Shown piece by piece: positions 1 to 11,139 of a stretch of DNA of 11,139 nucleotides. The notes beneath the pieces are model-generated. The model saw only the letters and a program-made list of their open reading frames with translations, did no database searches and was not told the origin of the DNA. Each line of letters opens with the position of its first letter. Within the stretch, counting starts at the first letter, position 1. The position numbers were made by a program, and so were the translations under genes. The DNA lies in the NCBI GenBank assembly GCA_016929205.1, contig JAFGJF010000435.1, forward strand, positions 1 to 11,139. Reading direction: 5' to 3'. The DNA is from Anaerolineae bacterium (lineage in GTDB: Bacteria; Chloroflexota; Anaerolineae; JAFGEY01).

Positions 1-412
1 TCGGCGTGTTCGTCGGCGTGGCCGTAAACAACGCCGGATCCAGCACCTCAACCACGATCGTCAGTGGCACGCTGGTATGCTCGTCCGCATTGACTGCTTT
101 GACCGTCAATTTGTGCTCGCCGGGGTCGCCGGCCCGCCAACGCTGGACGACAAGAAAAGAAGGAGATCCGTCAACCTCGTCTACACGATAGATCTCGTCG
201 TCGACCCACAATTCAATGCGCGCAAGGCCCCGTTTATCCGTCGTCTTGGTCTCAATTTCCAGCTCTTCTCCCAAGGCAACGCGCGCCCCGCTGGGGGGTG
301 AGATCAATTCCACCTCGGGCCGAACGATTTCTGCCACCTCGGTTGGCGCGACCGTTTGGCAGGCGGACAAGATAACCAGCAACAAGATTGAGATACACCA
401 GAACTGTTTCAT
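1..412 (-). CDS. Ig-like domain lipoprotein, 3' end cut by window edge
   Basis: About 137 codons are present and the reading frame stays open to the window edge. The protein starts MKQFWCISILLLVILSAC: a short positive N-terminus, a hydrophobic core and the lipobox L15-S-A-C18, so it is a predicted lipoprotein anchored outside the cytoplasmic membrane. Residues about 33-127 form an Ig-like beta domain; the phrases ELISPPSGARVALGEELEI, RIELWVDDE and GEHKLTVKAVNA are typical of surface Ig-like domains in Chloroflexota. The last visible residues, TATPTNTP, begin a Thr/Pro-rich linker, so another domain probably follows off the edge. The ATG at 412-410 is preceded by GGGAG seven bases upstream. 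It lies 140 bp downstream of ruvB on the same strand; I found no convincing promoter in that gap. The function of the missing C-terminal part is unknown. Confidence 0.85.
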   Translation of the reverse strand, partial: MKQFWCISILLLVILSACQTVAPTEVAEIVRPEVELISPPSGARVALGEELEIETKTTDKRGLARIELWVDDEIYRVDEVDGSPSFLVVQRWRAGDPGEHKLTVKAVNADEHTSVPLTIVVEVLDPALFTATPTNTP

Positions 413-544
413 AGATCAACTCCCAAGTACATATAATCGTATCTTGACAAAAAACAGGCGTGGGCGCAGGTCGGAATGCCACTCTGGTCTACATAACCCC
501 AAATCTTCCAAGGCTCCATTGCACAGCACCTACCTGTTGGGAAA

Positions 545-568
545 GGGGCATCTCACAAAAGCAGCCCC
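545..568 (-). terminator. Possible weak hairpin terminator at the end of ruvB
   Basis: On the minus strand GGGGC (568-564) can pair with GCCCC (549-545) around a 14-base loop and is followed by TTTCCC. The 5' arm lies in the last ruvB codons and the loop contains the stop codon. The stem is only 5 bp and the T tract is short, so this is a weak candidate. The rest of the gap (413-544) shows no gene or clear signal. Confidence 0.25.
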
Positions 569-1578
569 TGCTCCGGCGTCTGTGGAAACTCGACGCCAAG
601 ATGTTCATACGCCCGCCGCGTGGCTACACGGCCTCGGGGCGTGCGATCCAGAAAACCAAGCTGCAACAAGTACGGTTCGACGACATCCATGATCGTGTCC
701 GACTCTTCGCTGATCGAAGCGGCAATGGTATCCAGCCCCACCGGTCCACCATCAAATTTGTTAATGATCGCATCGAGTACGCGGCGGTCCATCTCGTCCA
801 TACCCAGGGCGTCAATATTGAGCATATCCAGCGCGGCTCGCGATACCTGCCGGTTGATGTAGCCATCGGCACGCACCTGGGCGTAATCGCGAACGCGCTT
901 GAGAAGCCGGTTGGCAACACGCGGCGTGCCACGCGCACGGAACGCGATCTCGGCTGCCCCCTGATCGTCGACGGGCACGTTCAGGATCTGGGCCGATCGT
1001 TTGACGATCGATTGGATCGCCTCCTGGCTGTAAAAGTCGAGGCGATAGACGACGCCAAACCGCGAGCGCAGTGGCGCGGTCATCAATGCCAGGCGCGTCG
1101 TCGCCCCGATGACGGTAAAGCGGGGCAGATTGAGACGAATAGAACGCGCGCCGGGGCCCTTGCCGATCACGATGTCGAGGGCAAAGTCTTCCATGGCTGG
1201 ATAAAGCACCTCTTCGACGACGTGTCCCAGGCGGTGGATCTCGTCGATAAACAAAATATCGCTCTTGTGCAAATTGGTCAGGATCGCCGCCAGGTCACCG
1301 GCTCGCTCGATCGCCGGGCCTGAAGTCACCCGGATGTTGACCCCCATCTCGACGGCGATGACGTGGGCCAACGACGTTTTTCCCAGCCCAGGCGGGCCGT
1401 AGAGCAGAACGTGCTCAAGTGCTTCCTGGCGTGCCCGCGCAGCATCTAAAAAGATGCGCAGTTTTTCTTTGATCTCTTCCTGGCCCTGGTACTGCTCGAG
1501 GGTTTGCGGGCGCAGAGCCGCATCGATGATCCCTTCGCCCGGTTTGGATTTAGGTGTAATGATACGGTCTTGGGTCAT
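553..1578 (-). CDS. ruvB: Holliday junction branch migration ATPase RuvB
   Basis: This is the 341-residue hexameric AAA+ motor that, with RuvA, drives branch migration of Holliday junctions in recombination and repair. The length is normal for the family. Visible features: Walker A GPPGLGKT (61-68), Walker B DEIH (112-115), sensor 1 GATTR (158-162) and PLRSRFG (169-175) carrying the expected arginine finger R171. The sensor 2 region [20 protein letters not shown] comes next, then the C-terminal winged helix with [15 protein letters not shown] and [17 protein letters not shown]. The ATG at 1578 follows a GAGG-type ribosome site and gives the standard N-terminus. ruvA and ruvC are not in the window. 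The gene lies 61 bp after the SAM hydrolase gene on the same strand and may be co-transcribed. No key residue appears to be missing. Confidence 0.97.
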
Positions 1579-1618
1579 TCAAACCTCGTTCCCACCCGCA
1601 TGTCCTAACATAATCCTG

Positions 1619-1660
1619 GGAAATGACGAGCGTTTCTTGTCAGATAACAAGCGTTTCCTT
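1619..1660 (-). repeat. Two imperfect 21-bp tandem units across the SAM hydrolase stop codon
   Basis: On the minus strand, unit A (1660-1640) is the last seven codons of the SAM hydrolase gene including TGA, and unit B (1639-1619) follows directly. They match at 14 of 21 positions, and at 13 of 16 in the core beginning GAAACGCT. Read in frame, A encodes KETLVI-stop and B encodes QETLVIS. The three core mismatches are all third-position changes that keep the amino acid. Confidence 0.55.
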
Positions 1661-2461
1661 GGATACAGGCCTCAGGACCACGGGATCACGAAGCGCGAGA
1701 CCCATCGCCTGTGCAGCGTTGCCATTGCGCACCGCGATCGCCATAAAGCCGCTGCTATCGGTGAGAGCAATCAGTTCCCCATCCGGCACATCGCTAAACG
1801 TCTGGTGAACCGCTTCAATCACCCGGTCTTTGACATCAATGCGCCAGTGTTCCGACTCGTGCAGCCAGTGTCCGGGAAAGTCGGTGATACAGTTGCCAAA
1901 ACGATCGATGTGCTGAATATGGGCCGTAATGTGGCCGTCAAAATGGCGGTTCGGCTCGGGAACCGGAAACGTGACCAACGTCTTGGCGTCGACCACTGTT
2001 CCCAGTTTGGCAAGCGGCACGCCTGCGGCCAGATGCGCCGCACATGGCCCAAAAATGTCACGCCCGTGAAAGACCGGGCTGACCGGGTGATGCCAGTAAG
2101 CCGGATCGGTCAACGATATCGCAGACGTAACCGTCTCTCGCGCTAGTACGTGGCTCAACACCCCGTTATCCGGTGCGATAAACGTGCCCTTGGGCGTCTG
2201 TACGGCCACGGCACGCCGGGCCGTACCCACACCTGGATCAACGACGATGACGTGGATCGTACTGGATGGCCAAAACGCATAGGCTGTCATCAACACAAAT
2301 CCGGTCCAGCGGATATTCTGAGGTGGAATACGATGCGAAATATCCACTAACTGGGCCTGCGGGACAATGCCGTGTATCACACCTTTCATCGCTCCCACAA
2401 GGCCATCTTGAAGGCCAAAATCAGTGAGCAAAGTAATAGTCGGTACAGGTTTCACCATCAT
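1640..2461 (-). CDS. S-adenosyl-L-methionine hydrolase, adenosine-forming (DUF62 family)
   Basis: This 273-residue protein belongs to the SAM hydroxide adenosyltransferase family, relatives of the fluorinase/chlorinase enzymes, which split SAM to adenosine and methionine using water. Family signatures are TDFGLQDGLVGAMKG (13-27), DISHRIPP (40-47), VDPGVG (74-79), PDNG (97-100), FHGRDIFGPCAAHLA (131-145) and DRFGNCITD. The Asp-Arg-His set described for the archaeal DUF62 enzyme matches D75, R82 and H132 by motif and spacing. No halide-specificity loop is obvious, so hydrolase is the better call than halogenase. The gene starts ATGATG directly after the lgt TAA with no spacer; its ribosome site AGAGGGGGA (2475-2467) lies in the last lgt codons, which suggests coupled translation. 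The SAH/MTA-deaminase-like gene upstream also acts on adenosyl-sulfur compounds. The physiological role of the family is poorly understood. Confidence 0.93.
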   Translation of the reverse strand: MMVKPVPTITLLTDFGLQDGLVGAMKGVIHGIVPQAQLVDISHRIPPQNIRWTGFVLMTAYAFWPSSTIHVIVVDPGVGTARRAVAVQTPKGTFIAPDNGVLSHVLARETVTSAISLTDPAYWHHPVSPVFHGRDIFGPCAAHLAAGVPLAKLGTVVDAKTLVTFPVPEPNRHFDGHITAHIQHIDRFGNCITDFPGHWLHESEHWRIDVKDRVIEAVHQTFSDVPDGELIALTDSSGFMAIAVRNGNAAQAMGLALRDPVVLRPVSKETLVI

Positions 2462-3247
2462 TTATATCCCCCTCTTGGCGTCTTGAGAAACCAGGTGATA
2501 GATCGTCAAACCAATCGCAAGACACACCTCAACAAGTGCCACCCACTGTGACAGCCACAGGCCCAGCCTCCACGTACCATCGCCGCGTATAAAGGCGATG
2601 CCAAAATCGGCCAAGGCGTACAATAGCAAATACAGCGAAAACGAAACCCCCGGCCGCAGCCGGCGCCGCATCGCCCACAATGCCCCCCACAGCAGCAGGC
2701 ACCAAACGATCATCAGCGGCTGAGTCAGGAACCGTTCGGCCTGCACACCAAAAATATCGGGCAGATCGGCCGTAAACCACGAAAGCGGCGGTGCGTACCC
2801 ACTCGCCTCAGCACCATAGGCACAGCCAGCCAGCAAGCAGCCCAACCAACCAAACGCGCCACCCAGTGCCAAACCAAAGGCCAGCACGTCAAACACCTCC
2901 CGCCAACCAGGTCCAGACGGCCGGCGACGAACAACAACCCAGACGAAAATCGCGACACAGCCGCCACACAGCGCCCCATGCCAGGCCAGCCCACCTTGCC
3001 ACAGCGCAAACGCCTTGGCCGGATAATCGACAAAATATGCCCAGTTGGCGATCACATATCCCGCCCGGCCTCCCAACAAGCCGCCGAGCAATCCCCAAAA
3101 TCCGGCGTCAAGCACGATCTCTTGATCTGGAAACCAAGATCGCGCCGCGCGCCAGGCCGCCCAAACACCGGCTAGCATTCCTAGAACCAGGGCAACAGTG
3201 TACGAATAGACGATATGAGAACCAAACCGAAAGAGGATAGGATACAT
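2462..3247 (-). CDS. lgt: Prolipoprotein diacylglyceryl transferase (Lgt), with one altered key residue
   Basis: This 261-residue, very hydrophobic, multi-spanning membrane protein should transfer diacylglycerol from phosphatidylglycerol to the lipobox cysteine of prelipoproteins. Family features include the N-terminal MYPILFRFG and SYTVAL segment, GGRAGYVIANWAYF (59-72), WQGGLAWHGALCGG (83-96) with the conserved H90, FLTQPL (173-178), and FIRGD (219-223) with R221 in the place of the C-terminal essential Arg. The signature segment reads GWLGCLLAGCAYG (133-145). The usual form starts GRIG, so W134 sits where other Lgt proteins have Arg (R143 in E. coli); the codon is TGG. The other changes in the segment are of the GC-type variant common outside Proteobacteria. 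It starts 7 bp after the ROK gene stop, without a clear ribosome site, and probably depends on coupled translation. Lgt is the best call; activity is less certain. Confidence 0.88.
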   Translation of the reverse strand: MYPILFRFGSHIVYSYTVALVLGMLAGVWAAWRAARSWFPDQEIVLDAGFWGLLGGLLGGRAGYVIANWAYFVDYPAKAFALWQGGLAWHGALCGGCVAIFVWVVVRRRPSGPGWREVFDVLAFGLALGGAFGWLGCLLAGCAYGAEASGYAPPLSWFTADLPDIFGVQAERFLTQPLMIVWCLLLWGALWAMRRRLRPGVSFSLYLLLYALADFGIAFIRGDGTWRLGLWLSQWVALVEVCLAIGLTIYHLVSQDAKRGI

Positions 3248-3254
3248 GGATGTG

Positions 3255-4226
3255 CTAGGTCTGAGCCATCATTGCCGCACCTGCTGCGCCGACGATGCCA
3301 ACTTGATCGCCTAGTTCGGCCAGCCTCACCTGAACCTTGGCCGCCGCGGAAGGAAAAGCGTACAGTTCAATGCCACGCGCTACAGGTTCCAAAAGCATGT
3401 CACCCAAGTTGGCCAGTCCCCCACCGATGACCAACATCTGGGGATTGAACAAATTGACCAGATTGGCCATACCAATGCCCAGGTAATGCATCGCCTGCAC
3501 GATGATCTCGGTCGCATAGGCATCGCCCAGTTTCATCGCATTAACCACATCCTTGGCCGAAACATCATAGGGAGCATCTTGGACAAGTTTGGCGATCATT
3601 GTGTTGATGCCCCGATTGACCAGTTCCTGGCCCTCGCGCGCGATGGCCGTTCCCGACGCCAATGCTTCCAGGCAACCTCGATTTCCACAGCCACAATGTG
3701 GACCTCTGGGCAAAATCGTCATATGCCCAATCTCACCCGCACCACCTGTGGTACCGTGATAGATCTTGCCATCCAGGATCAAGCCGCCGCCAATGCCGGT
3801 GCTGACGGTGACGTAAACCATATGCCTGGTGCCACGTCCTGCGCCATACAAATATTCGCCAATCGCGGCTGCGTTTGCATCATTCTCTAGAAAGGCGGGA
3901 ATCCCCATGGCATCCTGAATCAACTGGCGCAACGGCACATCATGCCAACCGGGAAGATTGGGCGGTTCGGTGAGAATGCCGGCGGGAATATCCATCGGAC
4001 CGGGCGCACCAATGCCAATGCCGGCAATTTCGTTCACGTTTGTGCCCGAATTGACAATCACCTCGTGCGCCGCCTCGATCATCCGTGCAACCACGGCATC
4101 GCATCCCTGCAAAACCTGGGTCGGGCGATAATCGCTGGCTCGCACGTATCCCGCTTCATTGACCAACCCGGTACCGATTTTCGTACCACCCAGATCAATG
4201 CCGAGAAACCATTTCTCCTCTGCCAT
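3255..4226 (-). CDS. ROK-family sugar kinase (glucokinase-like)
   Basis: This 323-residue cytoplasmic kinase has a ROK-type actin-like fold and is likely to phosphorylate glucose or a related hexose with ATP. Motifs: phosphate loop DLGGTK (11-16), sugar-binding GAPGPMD (73-79), ENDANAA (114-120) with catalytic base D116, STGIGGG (142-148), GEIGH (164-168), and the structural zinc set H168, C178, C180 and C185 in CGCGNRGCLE. The C-terminus has the second ATP-binding segment LVIGGGLAN. There is no N-terminal DNA-binding domain, so it is a kinase and not a NagC/XylR-type repressor. Glucose is the default guess; N-acetylmannosamine, N-acetylglucosamine or fructose are possible. The ATG at 4226 follows AAAGAGG on the minus strand. 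The gene lies 21 bp after the amidohydrolase-CYTH gene and 7 bp before lgt, inside a compact operon. Confidence 0.93.
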   Translation of the reverse strand: MAEEKWFLGIDLGGTKIGTGLVNEAGYVRASDYRPTQVLQGCDAVVARMIEAAHEVIVNSGTNVNEIAGIGIGAPGPMDIPAGILTEPPNLPGWHDVPLRQLIQDAMGIPAFLENDANAAAIGEYLYGAGRGTRHMVYVTVSTGIGGGLILDGKIYHGTTGGAGEIGHMTILPRGPHCGCGNRGCLEALASGTAIAREGQELVNRGINTMIAKLVQDAPYDVSAKDVVNAMKLGDAYATEIIVQAMHYLGIGMANLVNLFNPQMLVIGGGLANLGDMLLEPVARGIELYAFPSAAAKVQVRLAELGDQVGIVGAAGAAMMAQT

Positions 4227-4247
4227 ACAACCTCTTTTAGTCCGGGT

Positions 4248-6212
4248 CTATAGATCCAAATAATCCTGGCGCACAATGCACTCGGCAGAAAGTCCGAACA
4301 GATCAAGCAGCTCGCCGATCAAGACCGCCTTGCGCACAGCATCTTCTGAAGACCAGGTACGGCTCTTGATTTCGATAAACAGCCCATCCTGCGATGGCCG
4401 GACGATTTCGTCCACGTTGATGAAAAACAACGTCCCCCGGTAACGGATATGATAGCGGTGGCGATGCTTGGTCACTTCGTGCACCAGCTTGGGCTTGAAA
4501 TACTCGCGGTAAAAACGCACGCTGCGGTCGGCGTGACTCGCATACCGGGCACGAGTGAGCACCACCGAGTTTTCATATTCTTGTTCGATAACCGGCCCGG
4601 TGTAGACCAGGTTATAGATCGGGGTCATCTGGGCATCCAGGTCGATCACATTGTCCTCGCGATAACGAATACGCCCCTGAGCCGACTCACTAAAGGAAAA
4701 ATAGGTATCGTACTGATCGCGCTCCGAGTGTTTGGTCACCGTAATCTCGGGTTTCTCTAGCAAAGTCTCGACGTCAAGATCCTGTGGAATCCTGGCCTTG
4801 ACTTGCACTTCATACGTCTCTTCTTGTGCCAATCCCCCGATGATCAGCATCTTGTTCAACACATCTTTTTCACGCTCGATGAAAAAGTGATTGACCTTTT
4901 TTGCCAGTCTGGACGCTTCGGCCAAAGCCGCCTCTTCGTCGATTGTCAGAACCTGGCGGTCGCGCATCAACACTTTGCCATTCACCATCGTATGGCAAAC
5001 ATCGCAGCTCTTGGTCGCATAGACCAGGCGCGAATAGATATTTTGCCCAGTCGTCTCAAAGCGCGGCATCACGTGCACGCCGGTGGCATCCAGGACAGCC
5101 AGGTCAGCGCGTTTGCCCGGTTCGAGCGAGCCGATCAGGTGATCGATGTGCAGGGCACGCGCGCCCTCGATCGTCGCCATGGCAAATGCCTGCCGGGCGG
5201 GCAACACCGTGGGATCGTTGTTGAGCGCCTTGGGTAACAACGCCGCCAAGTGCATCTCGACCCACATATCCAGGTCGTTGTTGCTCGCCGTACCGTCGGT
5301 GCCAATGCCAACCGGGATGCCGTGACCGCTCATTTGAAATACCGGGGCGAATCCGCTGGCCAGCTTGAGATTGCTGGTTGGATTGTGTGCCACGCCCACG
5401 CGATGGCTAGACAGGATGTGCATATCCTCGTTGTTGACGTGTACACAATGGGCAGCCAGCACCTTGGCATCAAACAGCCCGACACTTTCCAACCAGCGCA
5501 CCGGTGACATGTTTTTCTGCTCGACGCTTTGTTCGACATCCAGCGCAGTCTCGGCAATGTGAATCAGCAACGGCACGTCATATTCTTGTGCCATACGCGC
5601 GGTCTCTCGAAGAATGTCGGCTGTACACATATAGGCCGAATGCGGCGCGGGCACAGCCGTAATCAGGTCGTGATCGCGCCAGTGATCGAGAAACTCGGCA
5701 CAATAGGCCAGGCTGGCGTCATAGCTGGTCGCGTCCGGCGTGGGAACAATCATAATCGTCTCCCCACACACCCCACGCAACCCGGCCTCAACCGCCGCCC
5801 AGGCAACTTCGTCCTCATAATAGTACATATCGGCAAAGGTGGTGACACCACCCCGAATAAACTCGGCGCATGATAGCAGCGTGCCCAGGCGACAAAACTC
5901 GGGATTGACAAAACGGGTCTCGGTGGGCAAAACGTAGCCGTGCAGCCACACATCAAGGCGCAGATCGTCGGACAGCCCTCGCAACAGGCTCATTGGCACA
6001 TGCGTGTGCGTATTGACCAACCCAGGAACAATAACCTGGTTTGTGCAGTCCCAGGTTTCTGGAGCAGAATAAGCCGCTTGAATCTCAAGTGCCGGTCCAA
6101 CGGCAACAATATCCGTCCCACGCACCGCAACCGCACCAGGATCGAACACGCTTCGCTCACCATCCATTGTAACCACGACGCCACCGGTTAACAAAAAATC
6201 GACTTGCTTCAT
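4248..6212 (-). CDS. Fusion: MTA/SAH-deaminase-type amidohydrolase with C-terminal CYTH domain
   Basis: This 654-residue protein joins two enzyme folds. Residues about 4-425 are a metal-dependent deaminase of the TRZ/ATZ-MTA/SAH deaminase type, converting 5'-methylthioadenosine or S-adenosylhomocysteine to the inosyl form plus ammonia. Metal and catalytic residues are visible: NTHTH (H69, H71), HIAE (H218, E221), AAHCVH (H255) and GTDGTASNN (D306), together with HNPTSNLKLASG and EPGKRADLAVLD. A charged, probably helical linker covers about 426-463. Residues 464-654 resemble a CYTH domain: EVQVKAR (468-474), YDTYFSF, RIRYRED (514-520), LTRARYAS, EVTKHRHRY, INVDEI and LFIEIKSR (611-618), then a long helix and YLDL. 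The usual CYTH acidic pairs read EVQVK and EIK, so part of the metal site is altered. The start at 6212 is chosen for its GGAGG five bases upstream; an in-frame ATG at 6299 lies upstream of the promoter at 6259-6286 and cannot be used from it. This is the first gene of the operon. Substrate of either half is inferred. Confidence 0.9.
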   Translation of the reverse strand: MKQVDFLLTGGVVVTMDGERSVFDPGAVAVRGTDIVAVGPALEIQAAYSAPETWDCTNQVIVPGLVNTHTHVPMSLLRGLSDDLRLDVWLHGYVLPTETRFVNPEFCRLGTLLSCAEFIRGGVTTFADMYYYEDEVAWAAVEAGLRGVCGETIMIVPTPDATSYDASLAYCAEFLDHWRDHDLITAVPAPHSAYMCTADILRETARMAQEYDVPLLIHIAETALDVEQSVEQKNMSPVRWLESVGLFDAKVLAAHCVHVNNEDMHILSSHRVGVAHNPTSNLKLASGFAPVFQMSGHGIPVGIGTDGTASNNDLDMWVEMHLAALLPKALNNDPTVLPARQAFAMATIEGARALHIDHLIGSLEPGKRADLAVLDATGVHVMPRFETTGQNIYSRLVYATKSCDVCHTMVNGKVLMRDRQVLTIDEEAALAEASRLAKKVNHFFIEREKDVLNKMLIIGGLAQEETYEVQVKARIPQDLDVETLLEKPEITVTKHSERDQYDTYFSFSESAQGRIRYREDNVIDLDAQMTPIYNLVYTGPVIEQEYENSVVLTRARYASHADRSVRFYREYFKPKLVHEVTKHRHRYHIRYRGTLFFINVDEIVRPSQDGLFIEIKSRTWSSEDAVRKAVLIGELLDLFGLSAECIVRQDYLDL

Positions 6213-6217
6213 CCCTG

Positions 6218-6222
6218 CCTCC
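6218..6222 (-). promoter_or_regulatory. Ribosome binding site that fixes the amidohydrolase-CYTH start
   Basis: GGAGG on the minus strand lies five bases before the ATG at 6212. It supports a 654-residue product beginning MKQVDFLL over a 29-residue longer form whose start would lie upstream of the transcript. Confidence 0.75.
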
Positions 6223-6251
6223 ACTCCCGTTCGATTCGACGAGCGCCCTGT

Positions 6252-6271
6252 GTTATCCATTATACCATAAC
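6252..6271. promoter_or_regulatory. Candidate operator: inverted repeat over the leftward -10 box
   Basis: GTTAT (6252-6256) and ATAAC (6267-6271) are inverted around a 10-base centre that contains the -10 box and is itself nearly symmetric (CC-ATTATA-CC). The size and position suit a dimeric repressor, but arms this short can arise by chance. No regulator gene is in the window. Confidence 0.3.
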
Positions 6272-6286
6272 CGTATTCTCTGACAA
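6259..6286 (-). promoter_or_regulatory. Sigma-A-type promoter for the leftward operon
   Basis: On the minus strand the -35 box is TTGTCA (6286-6281), the spacer is 16 bp and the -10 box is a perfect TATAAT (6264-6259). Transcription should begin near 6252, giving a leader of about 40 bases before the amidohydrolase-CYTH ATG at 6212. No other equally strong promoter is seen for the next three genes, which are nearly abutting. Confidence 0.75.
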
Positions 6287-6290
6287 CTTT

Positions 6291-6319
6291 TTGCGCCAAG
6301 AGTCATATCAGAGTACAAT
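6291..6319 (+). promoter_or_regulatory. Promoter for the RmlC-like gene
   Basis: The -10 box is TACAAT (6314-6319). A weak -35, TTGCGC, sits at 6291-6296 with a 17-bp spacer. Transcription should start near 6326. The -35 box is only four bases from the -35 box of the opposite promoter, so the two are back to back. Confidence 0.55.
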
Positions 6320-6342
6320 ACCCACCATGATCCGATCTATTC

Positions 6343-6350
6343 AAGGAGGA
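6343..6350 (+). promoter_or_regulatory. Strong ribosome binding site that decides the RmlC-like start
   Basis: AAGGAGGA lies one base before an ATG at 6352, which is too close to use, and seven bases before the ATG at 6358, which is ideal. The protein therefore most likely starts MIDGVKTK and not MVMIDG. Confidence 0.75.
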
Positions 6351-6357
6351 TATGGTA

Positions 6358-6819
6358 ATGATCGACGGTGTCAAAACAAAAGAACTTGTCATCCATCCCG
6401 ACGACCGAGGTATGTTTACCGAGGTTGTAAAAGCAACCGACGATTTTGTGGACGATCACCCGTTTGCCCAAATCTCGCATACGTTGACTTTTCCCGGGGT
6501 GATCAAGGCTTTTCACTGGCACAACCACCAAATCGATTACTGGTATTGCGCAGTTGGCAACATTCGCGTCGGATTGGTCGATTTGCGTCATGACTCACCG
6601 ACGCAGGGACAATTGATGTCCATCTACCTGGGAGAGTTGAGTCGCAAAGTGCTGAAAATTCCACCCGGTGTCGCGCACGGCTACCAGGTTCTGGGAAATA
6701 CACCGGCACAGTTGATCTATTATACAACCAAACCATACGATCCCCAAGCGCCGGACGAAGAACGCATTGCCTGGGACGATCCTACGCTTGGATTCGACTG
6801 GACGATCAAGAACCGCTAA
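6358..6819 (+). CDS. RmlC-like dTDP-4-dehydrorhamnose 3,5-epimerase family protein
   Basis: This 153-residue cupin-fold protein is of the RmlC/RfbC type, which epimerises nucleotide-linked 4-keto sugars on the way to rhamnose and related deoxysugars. Seen in order: DDRGMFTEV (15-23), IKAFHWHNHQIDYWY (49-63) where H53 matches the catalytic His of the usual RGLHxQ motif, VGLVDLRHDSPT, IPPGVAHGYQVLG (101-113), YYTTKPYDP (121-129) with candidate catalytic Tyr, and the C-terminal WDDPTLGFDW (139-148). It is shorter than classic RmlC (about 180 residues), and the substrate-binding Arg before the His is Lys. It may therefore act on another sugar nucleotide or only as an isomerase. No rmlA, rmlB or rmlD is adjacent; the Wzz-type gene downstream fits a polysaccharide role. 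It has its own promoter and a strong ribosome site. Confidence 0.85.
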   Translation: MIDGVKTKELVIHPDDRGMFTEVVKATDDFVDDHPFAQISHTLTFPGVIKAFHWHNHQIDYWYCAVGNIRVGLVDLRHDSPTQGQLMSIYLGELSRKVLKIPPGVAHGYQVLGNTPAQLIYYTTKPYDPQAPDEERIAWDDPTLGFDWTIKNR

Positions 6820-6832
6820 CGCCAGGATTGAT

Positions 6833-6861
6833 TTGCACGTTCGAGGCTTTTCTGATATAAC
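6833..6861 (+). promoter_or_regulatory. Promoter for the penicillin-binding protein gene
   Basis: The -35 box is TTGCAC (6833-6838), the spacer is 17 bp and the -10 box is TATAAC (6856-6861), preceded by TGA, which makes an extended -10. Transcription would start near 6868, about 30 bases before the ATG at 6897. I see no terminator between the RmlC-like gene (ends 6819) and this promoter, so read-through is also possible. Confidence 0.6.
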
Positions 6862-6896
6862 TGTGCCCTGACAAATATCCTTTGATTTAGGCGAAT

Positions 6897-9800
6897 ATGA
6901 AAAAAGCCAAACTTGTTTTTATCAAAAGAAGACACACGGAACGGGTCCGAAAGCAAACGATCGGACCCAATCTGTTGTTACGCGTCTTTGGTGGCTCAAT
7001 CGGCATCTTGCTCACCACGACGTTGATCATGGTTTTGTCCGCTGCTGGAGCCACAGTCGGCGTCTGGGCCTACTTTACCAAAGACCTGCCCGATGCAGAA
7101 GAGATCCAGGTCGTCGAACAAGGGTTTGAGACCATTCGTTTTTACGACCGTACTGGCAAAACAATGATCTATGAGATGGTTAACCCATTGGGGGACCGGA
7201 TCTGGCTCAACATCGATGACATTCCAGACGCGATCAAGTGGGCGACCATTTCGATCGAGGACCGCGACTTTTACACCAACCCTGGCGTTAATCTTCGAGG
7301 ATTAGGGCGTGCGTTTGCCAACGAATTGCGAGGCCTGCCCACCCAGGGTGGCAGTTCGCTCACCCAGCAGTTGGTCAAAAACGTCCTGATCGATCCCGAA
7401 GAGCGATATGAAAAATCCTACTCGCGCAAGATCAAAGAAGTGATCCTGTCCCTTGAAATCACGCGAAAATTCAGCAAAGACCAGATCCTGGAATGGTACC
7501 TCAATCTAAACAGCTATGGCAACTTTGCCTATGGCATCGAGTCGGCAGCACAGGTGTACTTTGGCAAATCAGTGCACGAACTGACCATTGCCGAGATCGC
7601 CATGCTGGCTCCAATCCCCCAGTATCCGGGCTTGAACCCTATCGACAACTGGGAATATGCCAAAAAACGCCAGGAACTCACCCTTGACGGTATGGCCTCT
7701 ACCGGTTTTCTGACACAAGAACAAGCAGAGGCAGCCAAGGCGCGAGAGATCAAGATCAAAGAAAAAGGGATCACCGAACGCTTTGACGTGATTGCCCCTC
7801 ATTTCTCGCTGTATGCAGCCAACCAGCTAGAAGACCTGGTTGGCGCTGAAGCCGTAGCCCTGGGTGGCCTGGAGGTCTATACCACCATCGACCTGGAATT
7901 ACAAGCGATCGCCGAAGAGGCAGCGCGCAAACGCGTGCGAGAGCTGACGGAACAAAACCTGGACGTCAACAACGCGGCTGTGATCAGCCTTCGCCCGCGC
8001 ACGGGCGAAATTCTGGTCATGGTGGGCAGCATCGATTATTGGAATAAAGAAATCGACGGCCAAGTCAATGTCGCATTGGCCGAAAGACAGCCCGGCTCGT
8101 CCTTCAAGCCATTTACTTATCTGACCGCTTTTTCCCAAGGGTACACCCCGGCAACGATGGTCCTCGATGTGCGCACGTGTCCCAACCCAAACGACCCGTC
8201 ATGGTGCCCGGAAAACTATCCCGATGCCGATGGCACGCGCCCCTATCACGGCCCGCAGCGATTGCGTAATGCCCTGGCCCGCTCATACAATATTCCGGCG
8301 GTCAAGGTGATGAAGATGGTCGGCGTGGGCAACGTCATCAAAACAGCACATGCGATGGGCATTACCACGCTGCGCAAAGACCTTGACTTTTACGGCCTGG
8401 CTCTTACTTTGGGCGGCGGCGAGGTCAAACTGATCGATATGGCCTTTGCCTATGGCGTCGTCGCCAACCAGGGCACGATGTATGGCGTCCCTATCCCGGA
8501 AGATCGGATCGAGATGGGCTACCGGGAATTGGATCCAATCTCAATCTTGCAGGTCAGAAATCGCGACGATCAGGTCATTTGGGAATACACCCAGCCCGAT
8601 TCCAGGGAAATCGTCGATCCCAAACTGACATACCTGCTGACCGACATCATGTCGGACAATGCCGCTCGCAGTTGGGTTTTTGGCCTGCACAGCAAGCTGG
8701 TCCTTGAAGACCGCCCCGTCGCGGCCAAGACAGGAACGACTGACGGCTGGCACGACTGTTGGACGGTAGGGTTTACGCCGCAGATCGTGACCACGGTATG
8801 GATGGGCAACACCGACAATACCCCTATGAGAAAAGTCACTGGCGGGTATGGAGCGGCATACGTTTGGAACGACGTCATGACAGCCGCGCACGAAGGACTG
8901 CCGGTTGAAACCTGGGAACAACCTGAAGGCATTGTAGAAGCACACGTCTGTTCGGTTTCGGGCCTGCTGCCCAGCCCAGACTGCCCGAGCGTCGTCAAAG
9001 AGATCTTTGTGGATGGCACCCAGCCGGTGGCAACATGTAACATCCACCGGGCCTACGAAGTGAACAAGCAAACAGGCAGACTCGCCACACCAAACACACC
9101 GCCAGAATTGATCGATCGCCAGGTCTATACTGTCTTGCCACCGGAGGCCGACGACTGGGTGCGAGAAGCCAATATTCCCCAACCACCTACAGAATACGAC
9201 GATTATTCGAGCACGCGCGAAAACGAAGACATTGCCATTGTCTATCCGGTCACATTTGGGTATATCAGCCAGGTGGTCGAGATCAAAGGTAATGCTCGAA
9301 ACAATGTCAGGTTTTGGAAACTGGACTATGGTCAGGGCCTTGCGCCACAAGAATGGTTCCAGATTGGCGGCGATCATCCTTATGAAGTCAATGGCGACCT
9401 GATGGAATATTGGGACGTGACCGAATTGGACGGATTGTATACCCTGCGGTTGACCGTCATCGGACACGACGACTCGATCCGCCAAGACATCATCCAGGTC
9501 ACAGTCGACAACGTCGCTCCCATTATGGAATTTAACCACCCACAACAAGGTGACGTGTTTATAAAAGAAGATGACGAGCGGATCAACATCCAAGCCACCG
9601 TCAAAGACAACGTCTCTCTAGATCGCGTCGAATTCTTTGTCGACGGCCGAGAATTTGCCGTCTCGACCGTGCCGCCCTATAACAAATCGTGGACAATTGT
9701 GATGTCGGATACAAATCCCGTTTTGAGGTCGGATGCCGTAGGCATCACCCGTCCTTTCACACGGACCGATGGTACGGTTGTTGAGCGATATTACCTGGCC

Positions 9801-10145
9801 TCAAGCACAGTTTGGGCTACACGCACCGTTACCCACACAAATGGCACCACCGGCCTTGAACAATATATCGCCTCGCAAGTTCTGTACGACCCCGAGTTGG
9901 ATCAGGTGTATCGCTGGTTTGACGGAGGTATGGTCATCATTCACGATAGCAAAGGCTACACCGAAACCCACCTCATCCACGTCGTGGCCTATGACGCTGC
10001 TGGAAACGAGACCAAAAGCGAGCAGGTGCGGGTTCATGTCGTACACAAAAAGCCAAGAGAGGAATCGGCGATCCCGCATCATGCGCTCATTATGCCTGCC
10101 AATACAAGTGCAGGCAGGTCTTTAACACGGAGGAAACACCATTAA
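6897..10145 (+). CDS. Class A penicillin-binding protein (PBP1A type) with C-terminal Ig-like domains
   Basis: This 1082-residue bifunctional peptidoglycan synthase has a basic cytoplasmic tail and one membrane anchor (about 28-60). The GT51 glycosyltransferase domain carries EDRDFYTNPGVN (121-132) with catalytic E121, GGSSLTQQLVKN (151-162) and RKIKEVILSLEITRKF (177-192). The transpeptidase has SSFK with nucleophile S401 and K404 (401-404), SYN (463-465) and KTGT (611-614), so both active sites look intact. After it come a Cys-containing segment (C685, C696, C714, H717), a Pro-rich linker, a beta domain (about 779-868) and an Ig-like domain (873 to about 1058). This last domain is interrupted by about 88 extra residues (935-1022). 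Most PBP1A proteins are 650-900 residues, so the tail of about 300 is extra; it lies outside the membrane and may bind wall or surface polymers. The ribosome site is weak (TAGGCGA). The stop codon overlaps the next start. Confidence 0.95.
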   Translation: MKKAKLVFIKRRHTERVRKQTIGPNLLLRVFGGSIGILLTTTLIMVLSAAGATVGVWAYFTKDLPDAEEIQVVEQGFETIRFYDRTGKTMIYEMVNPLGDRIWLNIDDIPDAIKWATISIEDRDFYTNPGVNLRGLGRAFANELRGLPTQGGSSLTQQLVKNVLIDPEERYEKSYSRKIKEVILSLEITRKFSKDQILEWYLNLNSYGNFAYGIESAAQVYFGKSVHELTIAEIAMLAPIPQYPGLNPIDNWEYAKKRQELTLDGMASTGFLTQEQAEAAKAREIKIKEKGITERFDVIAPHFSLYAANQLEDLVGAEAVALGGLEVYTTIDLELQAIAEEAARKRVRELTEQNLDVNNAAVISLRPRTGEILVMVGSIDYWNKEIDGQVNVALAERQPGSSFKPFTYLTAFSQGYTPATMVLDVRTCPNPNDPSWCPENYPDADGTRPYHGPQRLRNALARSYNIPAVKVMKMVGVGNVIKTAHAMGITTLRKDLDFYGLALTLGGGEVKLIDMAFAYGVVANQGTMYGVPIPEDRIEMGYRELDPISILQVRNRDDQVIWEYTQPDSREIVDPKLTYLLTDIMSDNAARSWVFGLHSKLVLEDRPVAAKTGTTDGWHDCWTVGFTPQIVTTVWMGNTDNTPMRKVTGGYGAAYVWNDVMTAAHEGLPVETWEQPEGIVEAHVCSVSGLLPSPDCPSVVKEIFVDGTQPVATCNIHRAYEVNKQTGRLATPNTPPELIDRQVYTVLPPEADDWVREANIPQPPTEYDDYSSTRENEDIAIVYPVTFGYISQVVEIKGNARNNVRFWKLDYGQGLAPQEWFQIGGDHPYEVNGDLMEYWDVTELDGLYTLRLTVIGHDDSIRQDIIQVTVDNVAPIMEFNHPQQGDVFIKEDDERINIQATVKDNVSLDRVEFFVDGREFAVSTVPPYNKSWTIVMSDTNPVLRSDAVGITRPFTRTDGTVVERYYLASSTVWATRTVTHTNGTTGLEQYIASQVLYDPELDQVYRWFDGGMVIIHDSKGYTETHLIHVVAYDAAGNETKSEQVRVHVVHKKPREESAIPHHALIMPANTSAGRSLTRRKHH
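10093..10116 (+). repeat. Hairpin near the end of the PBP gene, before the HicB-like gene
   Basis: TGCCTGC (10093-10099) and GCAGGCA (10110-10116) form a perfect 7-bp stem with a 10-base loop, inside the last PBP codons and 12 bases before the GGAGG of the next gene. No T run follows, so it is not a typical terminator. It might set the ratio of the two products, but this is inference. Confidence 0.4.
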
Positions 10146-10408
10146 TGAAAAGTTTTCCCATGGCAGAATATGTCTACACTGCGATGACAAAAGCACGTTA
10201 CGTCGCGCTGGAAGATGGCTCATATTATGCCGACATTTTTTTGTGCCCCGGCGTCTGGGCTACCGGAGAAACAGTCGAGGAATGTCGCGATGTACTCAAA
10301 GAGGTGCTTTTGGATTGGCTGCTTGCCGCTTATGAAGATGAGGATCCCCTGCCCAAGATGACCGAGCTGGCCTGGCTCAATCCACTGTGGCATATCGCGG
10401 GAGATTGA
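10145..10408 (+). CDS. Small HicB-like protein, no HicA partner seen
   Basis: This 87-residue protein resembles the HicB antitoxin N-terminal domain, which has a partial RNase H-like fold. The diagnostic part is ARYVALEDGSYYADI, then PGVWATGETVEECRDVL, then an amphipathic helix KEVLLDWLLAAYEDEDPLPK. Family members usually read DGxYxAxxPxLPGxxTxGxTxEEA in the same place. The protein ends ELAWLNPLWHIAGD, with no helix-turn-helix or ribbon-helix-helix DNA-binding domain. Its ATG overlaps the TAA of the PBP gene (TAATG), and GGAGG at 10129-10133 lies 11 bases upstream, so translation is probably coupled to the PBP. No HicA-like gene (60-80 residues with a GSHR-type motif) lies on either side. It may be a solitary HicB used as a regulator or a relic of a toxin-antitoxin pair. 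The family call is moderately sure; the function is unknown. Confidence 0.65.
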   Translation: MKSFPMAEYVYTAMTKARYVALEDGSYYADIFLCPGVWATGETVEECRDVLKEVLLDWLLAAYEDEDPLPKMTELAWLNPLWHIAGD

Positions 10409-10428
10409 GACAAACACTGAGATATAAT

Positions 10429-10457
10429 TTGTCGCCACCCTTGAGGTGTGTTATAAT
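10429..10457 (+). promoter_or_regulatory. Extended -10 promoter for the Wzz-type gene
   Basis: TTGTCG (10429-10434), a 17-bp spacer and a perfect TATAAT (10452-10457) with TGT directly before it (extended -10). Transcription should start in the C run near 10463, leaving a leader of about 63 bases. A second TATAAT at 10423-10428 lacks a -35 box at the right distance. Confidence 0.75.
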
Positions 10458-10462
10458 GCCCC

Positions 10463-10525
10463 CCGTTTCCCTGGTACCGGGAACAAGACAAGATATCTTA
10501 TTATTGATAGAATGGCACACACAAT
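10463..10525 (+). promoter_or_regulatory. Leader of the Wzz-type gene with two palindromes and no ribosome site
   Basis: TTCCC (10467-10471) and GGGAA (10479-10483) form a small hairpin. AAGATATCTT (10490-10499) is a perfect 10-bp palindrome. No Shine-Dalgarno sequence precedes the ATG at 10526, and an in-frame TAG at 10508-10510 excludes an earlier start. The palindromes could be an operator or a translational control element, but neither is strong. Confidence 0.35.
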
Positions 10526-11139
10526 ATGGAAGAAGAAATCGATCTGCGACAATACATCCAAGCCCTGTTCAAATATAAATTTTGGATCTTGGGATTGGCC
10601 TTCGTTGCCGCCCTGGTGGGCCTGGGCGGCAGTTTTTTGATATCACCAACCTACCAAGCTACCGCATTGGTGGCGATTACCGAGCCTCGCTACACGATGC
10701 AGTTTGATTCCCGGTTCTCAACGGATGACGTGCAGCCACCATACAAGGCATACCTTGATCTGGCTATGGGCGATGCACTGCTGGCCGCACTGATCGAGGA
10801 TTTGGGTAACGCACTGGAGGCAGAAGAACAATCGGTCCAAGTGCTAAGTGAGATGTTACAAGCGACAAATGGCAGCGATCCCAGCATTGTTCTTTTGAAG
10901 GTCGAGAATGGAGACCGCAAACGAACACCGCTTATTGCCAACCGTTGGGCCGAGCTGTTTGTGAATCATGTCAACGAATTGTACGGCCAAAGCCAGGCCG
11001 ATCTGACATTTTTTGACGAGCAACTGGCTGAAACGCAAGAAACACTGGACCAGTCCGAACAAGATCTGATCGCTTTCCAGGCCAACAACGAGTCGGCCAT
11101 TTTGCAGGCCCAGTTGAATGACAGACAAGCTGCTTTACA
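10526..11139 (+). CDS. Wzz/GumC-type polysaccharide chain-length regulator, 3' end cut by window edge
   Basis: The frame is open from the ATG to the window edge (204 complete codons). The N-terminus MEEEIDLRQYIQALFKYK is the typical cytoplasmic start of Wzz/GumC polysaccharide co-polymerases, followed by one membrane segment (about 19-39) and a periplasmic or extracellular beta/alpha domain beginning SPTYQATALVAITEPRY. A long, Glu/Gln-rich coiled-coil region runs from about residue 150 to the edge. The second membrane segment, and any fused tyrosine kinase domain, would lie beyond the window. Such proteins set the length of exported polysaccharide, working with a Wzy polymerase. There is no ribosome site, but the conserved N-terminus and the in-frame TAG just upstream make the start fairly firm. 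It probably opens an exopolysaccharide gene cluster to the right, which the RmlC-like gene would suit. Confidence 0.85.
   Translation, partial: MEEEIDLRQYIQALFKYKFWILGLAFVAALVGLGGSFLISPTYQATALVAITEPRYTMQFDSRFSTDDVQPPYKAYLDLAMGDALLAALIEDLGNALEAEEQSVQVLSEMLQATNGSDPSIVLLKVENGDRKRTPLIANRWAELFVNHVNELYGQSQADLTFFDEQLAETQETLDQSEQDLIAFQANNESAILQAQLNDRQAAL

Follow-up and report, generated by a model that had tools for sequence, protein, structure and literature searches.

Deaminases of the 5'-methylthioadenosine/S-adenosylhomocysteine (MTA/SAH) type are represented by the Chromobacterium violaceum enzyme (PDB 4f0r/4f0s), T. maritima TM0936 and M. jannaschii DadD; according to one report (PMC10978960), the T. 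maritima homologue is an MTA/SAH deaminase and DadD converts SAH to its inosyl counterpart. Among proteins with the CYTH fold of the triphosphate tunnel metalloenzymes (TTM), SaTTM (PDB 7ns9) and ygiF (PDB 5a60) are canonical triphosphatases. The SaTTM paper mentions only a few CYTH fusions, to an HD hydrolase, an exopolyphosphatase, a nucleotidyl kinase and CHAD, and ygiF itself is joined to CHAD, not to a deaminase. In the plant TTM1/TTM2 proteins (PDB 7z67), the nearest parallel to the protein described here, a uridine-kinase-like domain is combined with a TTM domain, and this type is reported from Viridiplantae and Amoebozoa only. Here we describe a protein in which an amidohydrolase-type deaminase is fused to a CYTH/TTM domain; its gene lies in a stretch of 11,139 nucleotides from an Anaerolineae bacterium (GCA_016929205.1, contig JAFGJF010000435.1, forward strand 1-11,139), the whole of which is called the window below.

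Plant TTM1/2 and the fusion share the order of their parts: a domain of nucleoside metabolism comes first, then a TTM domain in which the ExExK and ExE motifs are altered. The plant proteins carry a kinase where the fusion carries a deaminase, and TYILK where it has ExQxK; on both counts the fusion was not assigned to the TTM1/2 type, and plant TTM1/2 gave no sequence match to the fused CYTH half in a search of solved structures. In the open-licence literature we found no paper describing an architecture of amidohydrolase or deaminase plus CYTH or triphosphate tunnel, and among the open-licence papers listed on triphosphate tunnel metalloenzymes and CYTH no title names a deaminase. An earlier sequence-only reading of this DNA did not recognise the combination as a standard architecture.

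A deaminase and a CYTH domain in one reading frame

The gene (4248..6212, minus strand) is a single unbroken frame of 654 codons, with the ATG at 6212 and the stop codon at 4250-4248, and was delimited from the open reading frame, Pfam matches and homologs; the sequence-only reading had noted the uninterrupted frame without giving its strand. The 654-amino-acid product consists of a deaminase half (residues 1-440; 4893..6212, minus strand), a linker that is mainly helical in the predicted model (residues 441-465; 4818..4892, minus strand), and a CYTH/TTM half (residues 466-654; 4251..4817, minus strand). The homolog list comprised the query and 119 homologs, the best 120 of 8000 scored. In this list 117 of the 119 homologs cover at least 98% of the query at 57-82% identity, and the remaining two (P0039 and P0040) are without the N-terminal part.

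The deaminase half is matched by PF01979 over residues 60-414 (E 3.1e-71, 240.9 bits against a cut-off of 25). The closest chain in a search of solved structures is the MTA/SAH deaminase 4f0r (E 1.3e-93), and Foldseek aligned the deaminase half with the same structure at E 2.2e-46, with a TM-score on the target of 0.95 and 39% identity. The MTA/SAH-deaminase-type assignment made in the sequence-only reading is supported by PF01979 and by the closest solved chain. The likeness extends over the entire deaminase half, which alone covers the matched solved chain of 436-447 residues, without the CYTH half. All six residues that had been picked out earlier (H69, H71, H218, E221, H255, and D306), which we take to be the amidohydrolase metal ligands, are present; the last four are kept in 120 of 120 rows of the list, and the first two in 118, that stretch being missing from the other two rows. 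NCBIfam puts the deaminase half among TRZ/ATZ, N-ethylammeline, 5'-deoxyadenosine and MTA/SAH deaminase models. None of the 25 models listed reached its own cut-off (top score PRK09045.1, 447.2 bits against 540; 5'-deoxyadenosine deaminase, 361.2 bits against 522), and the scores therefore single out no one substrate. A substrate reading from residues 87/88 was dropped because D or E at position 87 also occurs in most stand-alone relatives. The nearest unfused deaminases (L084, L085, L086, and L087) are 42-43% identical and were found in the same class, and two genomes (G418 and G470) each hold one fused and one unfused copy.

For the CYTH half, PF01928 covers residues 467-628 at E 6.6e-6 (26.5 bits against a cut-off of 23.2, and 30.4 bits for the CYTH domain taken alone). 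Structure prediction gives residues 456-654 a fold that matches solved CYTH/TTM proteins with their tunnel beta-barrel, the fold in common with SaTTM and ygiF. The CYTH-like domain that the sequence-only reading had started at about residue 464 is supported by these two results, and the fold search that it had proposed as a check placed residues 456-654 inside the CYTH/TTM fold, not outside it. A sequence search of this half against solved structures returned chance-level matches only. The fused family forms a divergent edge of PF01928, because that model matches just 17 of 29 relatives at E values up to 1. Measured against the window protein at 43 loci, the deaminase half has a median identity of 54% and the CYTH half one of 46%.

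The deaminase-CYTH architecture is real, far beyond chance. A CYTH-profile search of Chloroflexota matched 89 of 400 genomes at 90 places, 88 of them in one frame of at least 600 amino acids and the other two at contig ends. In the class of Pelolinea, 89 of 150 genomes matched at 93 places, with a frame of at least 600 amino acids at 87 of them; four of the six short matches start within 3 bases of the contig start. These counts give the taxonomic spread that had been suggested as a further check. The 43 loci fetched at length (40 from genome searches and 3 named) all match the full protein, and the complete genome of Pelolinea submarina carries the fusion. There is usually one copy per genome, two matches being found in one of 89 genomes in the phylum search and in four of 89 in the class search, partly as fragments. 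The seven rows with organism names among the best 120 homologs are all from Anaerolineae or Chloroflexi. Searches outside Chloroflexota used another profile (A4) than those within it (A3); no match was obtained in the 199 genomes searched from the phylum to which G526 belongs (labelled Bacillota; G526 is the source of L004) or in the five genomes of a second search, both without a positive control there. As far as sampled, the fusion belongs to Chloroflexota. One homolog, P0225, is labelled as a Blastochloris sp. metagenome-assembled genome, a label at odds with that phylum.

The sequence-only reading had named a second outcome that would overturn it, namely two separate genes joined here by a sequencing error. 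The 88 long frames among the 90 matches in the 400 genomes, the contig-end position of the other two, and the complete Pelolinea submarina genome all speak against a joining by assembly or sequencing error, which we reject for the family as a whole and consider to have a negligible chance even here. Nothing was found in its favour. At least 120 short proteins with the fused-type CYTH domain exist; of the 120 listed, 97 have a match that starts no later than residue 430, within the deaminase half, and 23 one that starts beyond it. Most of those listed lie on short contigs and are fragment-like, but a few are on long contigs (P0210, on 415,848 bases), and some may be genuinely separate copies.

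A quick tree, made without bootstrap, included 54 deaminase halves: the window protein, 29 of the 43 fused loci, and 24 rows labelled unfused. The 30 fused rows share one branch (SH-aLRT 100) with L088 and L089, which are cut by contig ends, are 58-59% identical to the window protein and were labelled unfused. The other 22 rows stand outside this branch, L090 and L092 among them also running off their contigs. The count of three label changes on the tree fits L088 and L089 being cut rows labelled as unfused, and the simplest reading of the tree is a single fusion event. The ratio of nonsynonymous to synonymous substitution rates (dN/dS) was taken from pairs passing a dS filter (295 of 903 possible pairs), with ranges from the 40 lowest. 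For the nine closest fused-gene pairs (deaminase dS 0.26-0.54) the CYTH half has a dN/dS of 0.030-0.070 and the deaminase half one of 0.022-0.097; these pairs have loci in common and are not independent of one another. The close pairs are under strong purifying selection.

Metal-site residues of the tunnel

In ygiF (PMC4641920), metal 2 is bound by Glu4, Glu6 and Glu162 and carries the water that attacks the phosphate, and metal 1 is held by Glu160 together with the substrate; triphosphatases need the second Glu of ExE for metal 2 (PMC8233210). The matching positions in the fused protein, paired with ygiF by motifs and not by residue-level structural alignment, are EVQVK (residues 468-472; 4797..4811, minus strand), which is ExExK with Gln for the second Glu, and EIK (residues 614-616; 4365..4373, minus strand), which is ExE with Lys for the second Glu.

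MAFFT was used to align 29 fused domains to a set of 21 stand-alone CYTH proteins from their class (L009, G047 and the first 19 rows of the stand-alone CYTH listing; frames of 164-251 amino acids, CHAD-type and other long CYTH frames lying outside this sample). Position 470 is Q in 29/29 fused domains versus E in 21/21 stand-alone proteins, and position 616 is K in 29/29 versus E in 20 of the 21, with Q in one. ExExK is complete in 16 of the 21 stand-alone proteins, and the fused form is ExQxK throughout. Another motif variant, NxExK, is seen in the stand-alone proteins L109, L112, L113, L116 and L119. K472, R518, D601 and E614 agree between the two sets in all or all but one of the proteins, and at R516 the stand-alone proteins carry R in 16 and K in five; the RxR pair R516 and R518 is kept in 120 of 120 rows of the homolog list. 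An hhalign comparison with a stand-alone Pelolinea CYTH protein set EVQVK against EQEAK and EIKS against EIEG. The probability of this match, with a single sequence on one side, is low (4.9), but both motifs are in register. Like canonical CYTH proteins, then, the fused domain keeps the K of ExExK, RxR, and the first Glu of ExE, and unlike SaTTM and ygiF it has both metal-2 motifs altered. Judged from these alignments, the fused family keeps the putative metal-1 Glu (E614) and the basic residues and is without the residues matching two of the three metal-2 Glu ligands, and the CYTH half is not a standard triphosphatase.

A class IV adenylate cyclase (CyaB) was also rejected. The marks of CyaB are HF in HFxxxxExExK, a small residue in place of the first Arg of RxR, and Ala in place of the second Glu of ExE (PMC8233210). 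In the fused protein the HF motif is absent (residues 462-463 are AQ), R516 is kept where a small residue is expected, and the ExE position is Lys, not Ala.

Between the tunnel strands lies a nearly invariant segment, RSVRFYREYFKP (residues 563-574; window 4491-4526, minus strand). Within it R566, F567, E570 and F572 are kept in 120/120 rows and Y568 and Y571 in 119, and position 569 is variable, with R in 96. The segment may be an interface or a ligand contact.

Possible roles of the tunnel half

We favour, with a probability of about 0.5, a deaminase that carries a phosphate-chain-binding and probably non-hydrolytic regulatory tunnel. The protein would be a two-domain nucleoside-salvage enzyme of Chloroflexota. 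From its family, the N-terminal half is predicted to be a metal-dependent deaminase of the MTA/SAH/5'-deoxyadenosine type, converting an adenosyl compound to its inosyl counterpart. The C-terminal tunnel most likely binds a phosphate chain (tripolyphosphate, polyphosphate or nucleoside triphosphate) with one metal and without hydrolysis; this binding would tune the deaminase, and nucleoside turnover would thereby follow the phosphate or energy state. Binding or sensing is favoured over canonical processing because Q470 and K616 replace residues that match two metal-2 ligands and the phosphate-binding residues are kept. The sequence-only reading had the CYTH half sense or process a nucleotide or polyphosphate; sensing or binding is in keeping with the retained basic residues, and canonical processing is disfavoured by Q470 and K616.

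Several points weigh against this proposal. Plant TTM1/2 are also without ExExK and ExE, but in vitro AtTTM2 acts as a pyrophosphatase and the activity of AtTTM1 is similar (PMC8233210), so that a lost motif need not mean lost catalysis. At the position of E468, the first residue of ExExK and kept in the fused family, five of the 21 stand-alone proteins have N and 16 have E, and the motif thus seems to drift in CYTH proteins outside the fused family too. The residue pairing comes from sequence alignment, in which MAFFT left R554 and K582 unaligned to the canonical proteins. More distant gene pairs reach dN/dS values of 0.957 in the CYTH half and 0.559 in the deaminase half (the pair L047/L071 gives 0.957 and 0.551, respectively), probably as a result of saturated synonymous sites.

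The AtTTM2 activity is also part of the case for an active CYTH half with non-canonical chemistry, acting as a pyrophosphatase as in plant TTM1/2 or as a phosphotransferase as in Vtc4; the protein would then be bifunctional and might, for example, deal with the triphosphate and the nucleoside that adenosyl metabolism releases as by-products. The TTM domain of the Vtc4 polyphosphate polymerase is likewise a TTM barrel with a basic tunnel that binds a phosphate chain and with a metal-binding Glu. It is reported to transfer phosphate, to be inactivated by changes including E426, and to have a metal arrangement that matches site 1 of AtTTM3; the fused domain retains the metal-1 Glu and the basic residues. 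Vtc4 is a separate family with SPX and membrane parts, and the absence of its TTM domain from the 50 fold matches listed is no evidence either way. An active CYTH half has to contend with the replacement of the residues for two of the three metal-2 ligands, one of them by Lys, at positions where same-class stand-alone proteins hold Glu in 21/21 and 20/21, and we regard it as doubtful, though conceivable. A purely structural CYTH half, serving oligomerisation, stability or docking in the manner of the TTM-like folds of Mediator subunits, seems distinctly improbable to us. Med18/Med20 chains of Mediator are among the fold matches, and the nearly invariant RFYxEYF segment could be an interface, but charged tunnel residues kept in 120/120 rows are not expected of a purely structural domain.

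With an apparently single origin, a rewritten hydrolytic metal site and a retained phosphate site, the fusion is a clean example from nature of a catalytic fold that may have become a sensor. Two questions become testable with it: whether a TTM domain can act as a receptor, and whether phosphate or polyphosphate controls the deamination of adenosyl nucleosides. More speculatively, and with the odds against it, nucleoside-salvage enzymes may have acquired degenerate tunnels on more than one occasion, a kinase doing so in plants and amoebae and a deaminase in Chloroflexota; the tunnels would be allosteric phosphate-chain sensors through which levels of polyphosphate, tripolyphosphate or nucleoside triphosphates gate adenosyl-nucleoside turnover.

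The finding also corrects database labels. Among the fusion proteins listed, the source names are mostly deaminase or amidohydrolase, and two short proteins with the fused-type tail are labelled "adenylate cyclase class IV". A 354-amino-acid protein, P0124, has a porphobilinogen-deaminase-like start (PF01379) followed by the end of a deaminase-CYTH fusion and resembles a chimera or joining artefact.

Neighbouring genes

In the window the fusion gene heads a tight run of minus-strand genes. Downstream by 21 bp is a ROK-family sugar kinase-like protein (3255..4226, minus strand; PF00480, E 1.7e-73), followed after 7 bp by an LGT-like protein (2462-3247, minus strand; Pfam), and then, with a gap of 0 bp, by a SAM (S-adenosylmethionine) hydroxide adenosyltransferase-like protein (1640..2461, minus strand; PF01887, E 1.8e-54, and PF20257, E 1.4e-24). 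A Pfam-identified RuvB gene on the same strand, after 61 bp, is the last listed in the run. The adenosyltransferase-like gene, the third one downstream of the fusion gene in this run, scores 199.8 bits with NF058624, under the cut-off of 350. Adenosine, the predicted product of a SAM hydrolase, is a possible substrate of the deaminase.

The recurrence of this arrangement was assessed by tblastn with nine window proteins (E up to 1e-8) at 43 other loci of 9-20 kb. No match was found there for SAM_HAT, RmlC, LGT, UPF0150 or Wzz, and RuvB, ROK and the penicillin-binding protein were each found at two loci. A conserved operon with the SAM-hydrolase-like gene was rejected, there being no SAM_HAT hit at the 43 loci, and the window neighbourhood is therefore no evidence for the family. 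What would link the fusion to SAM or purine turnover, as suggested in the sequence-only reading, is the deaminase family and, in this window, the SAM-hydrolase-like neighbour, for which the 43 other loci gave no match.

At 15 of the 43 loci a CinA-like gene with the orientation of the fusion lies upstream of it, at a distance of one to four genes; one member is annotated by Pfam as MoCF plus KH. A PF01048 nucleoside phosphorylase-type gene is found two genes upstream at two of the 43 loci (L042, 6479-7399, by similarity; L075, 6673-7518, annotated) and would fit a deaminase-phosphorylase salvage route. Both kinds of neighbour are too patchy to decide function. In the window itself, the LGT family protein is a divergent member (best NCBIfam Lgt score 93.4 against 334), and the first base of a UPF0150/HicB-like gene of 87 amino acids (10145-10408, plus strand) is also the final base of the gene for the penicillin-binding protein (6897-10145).
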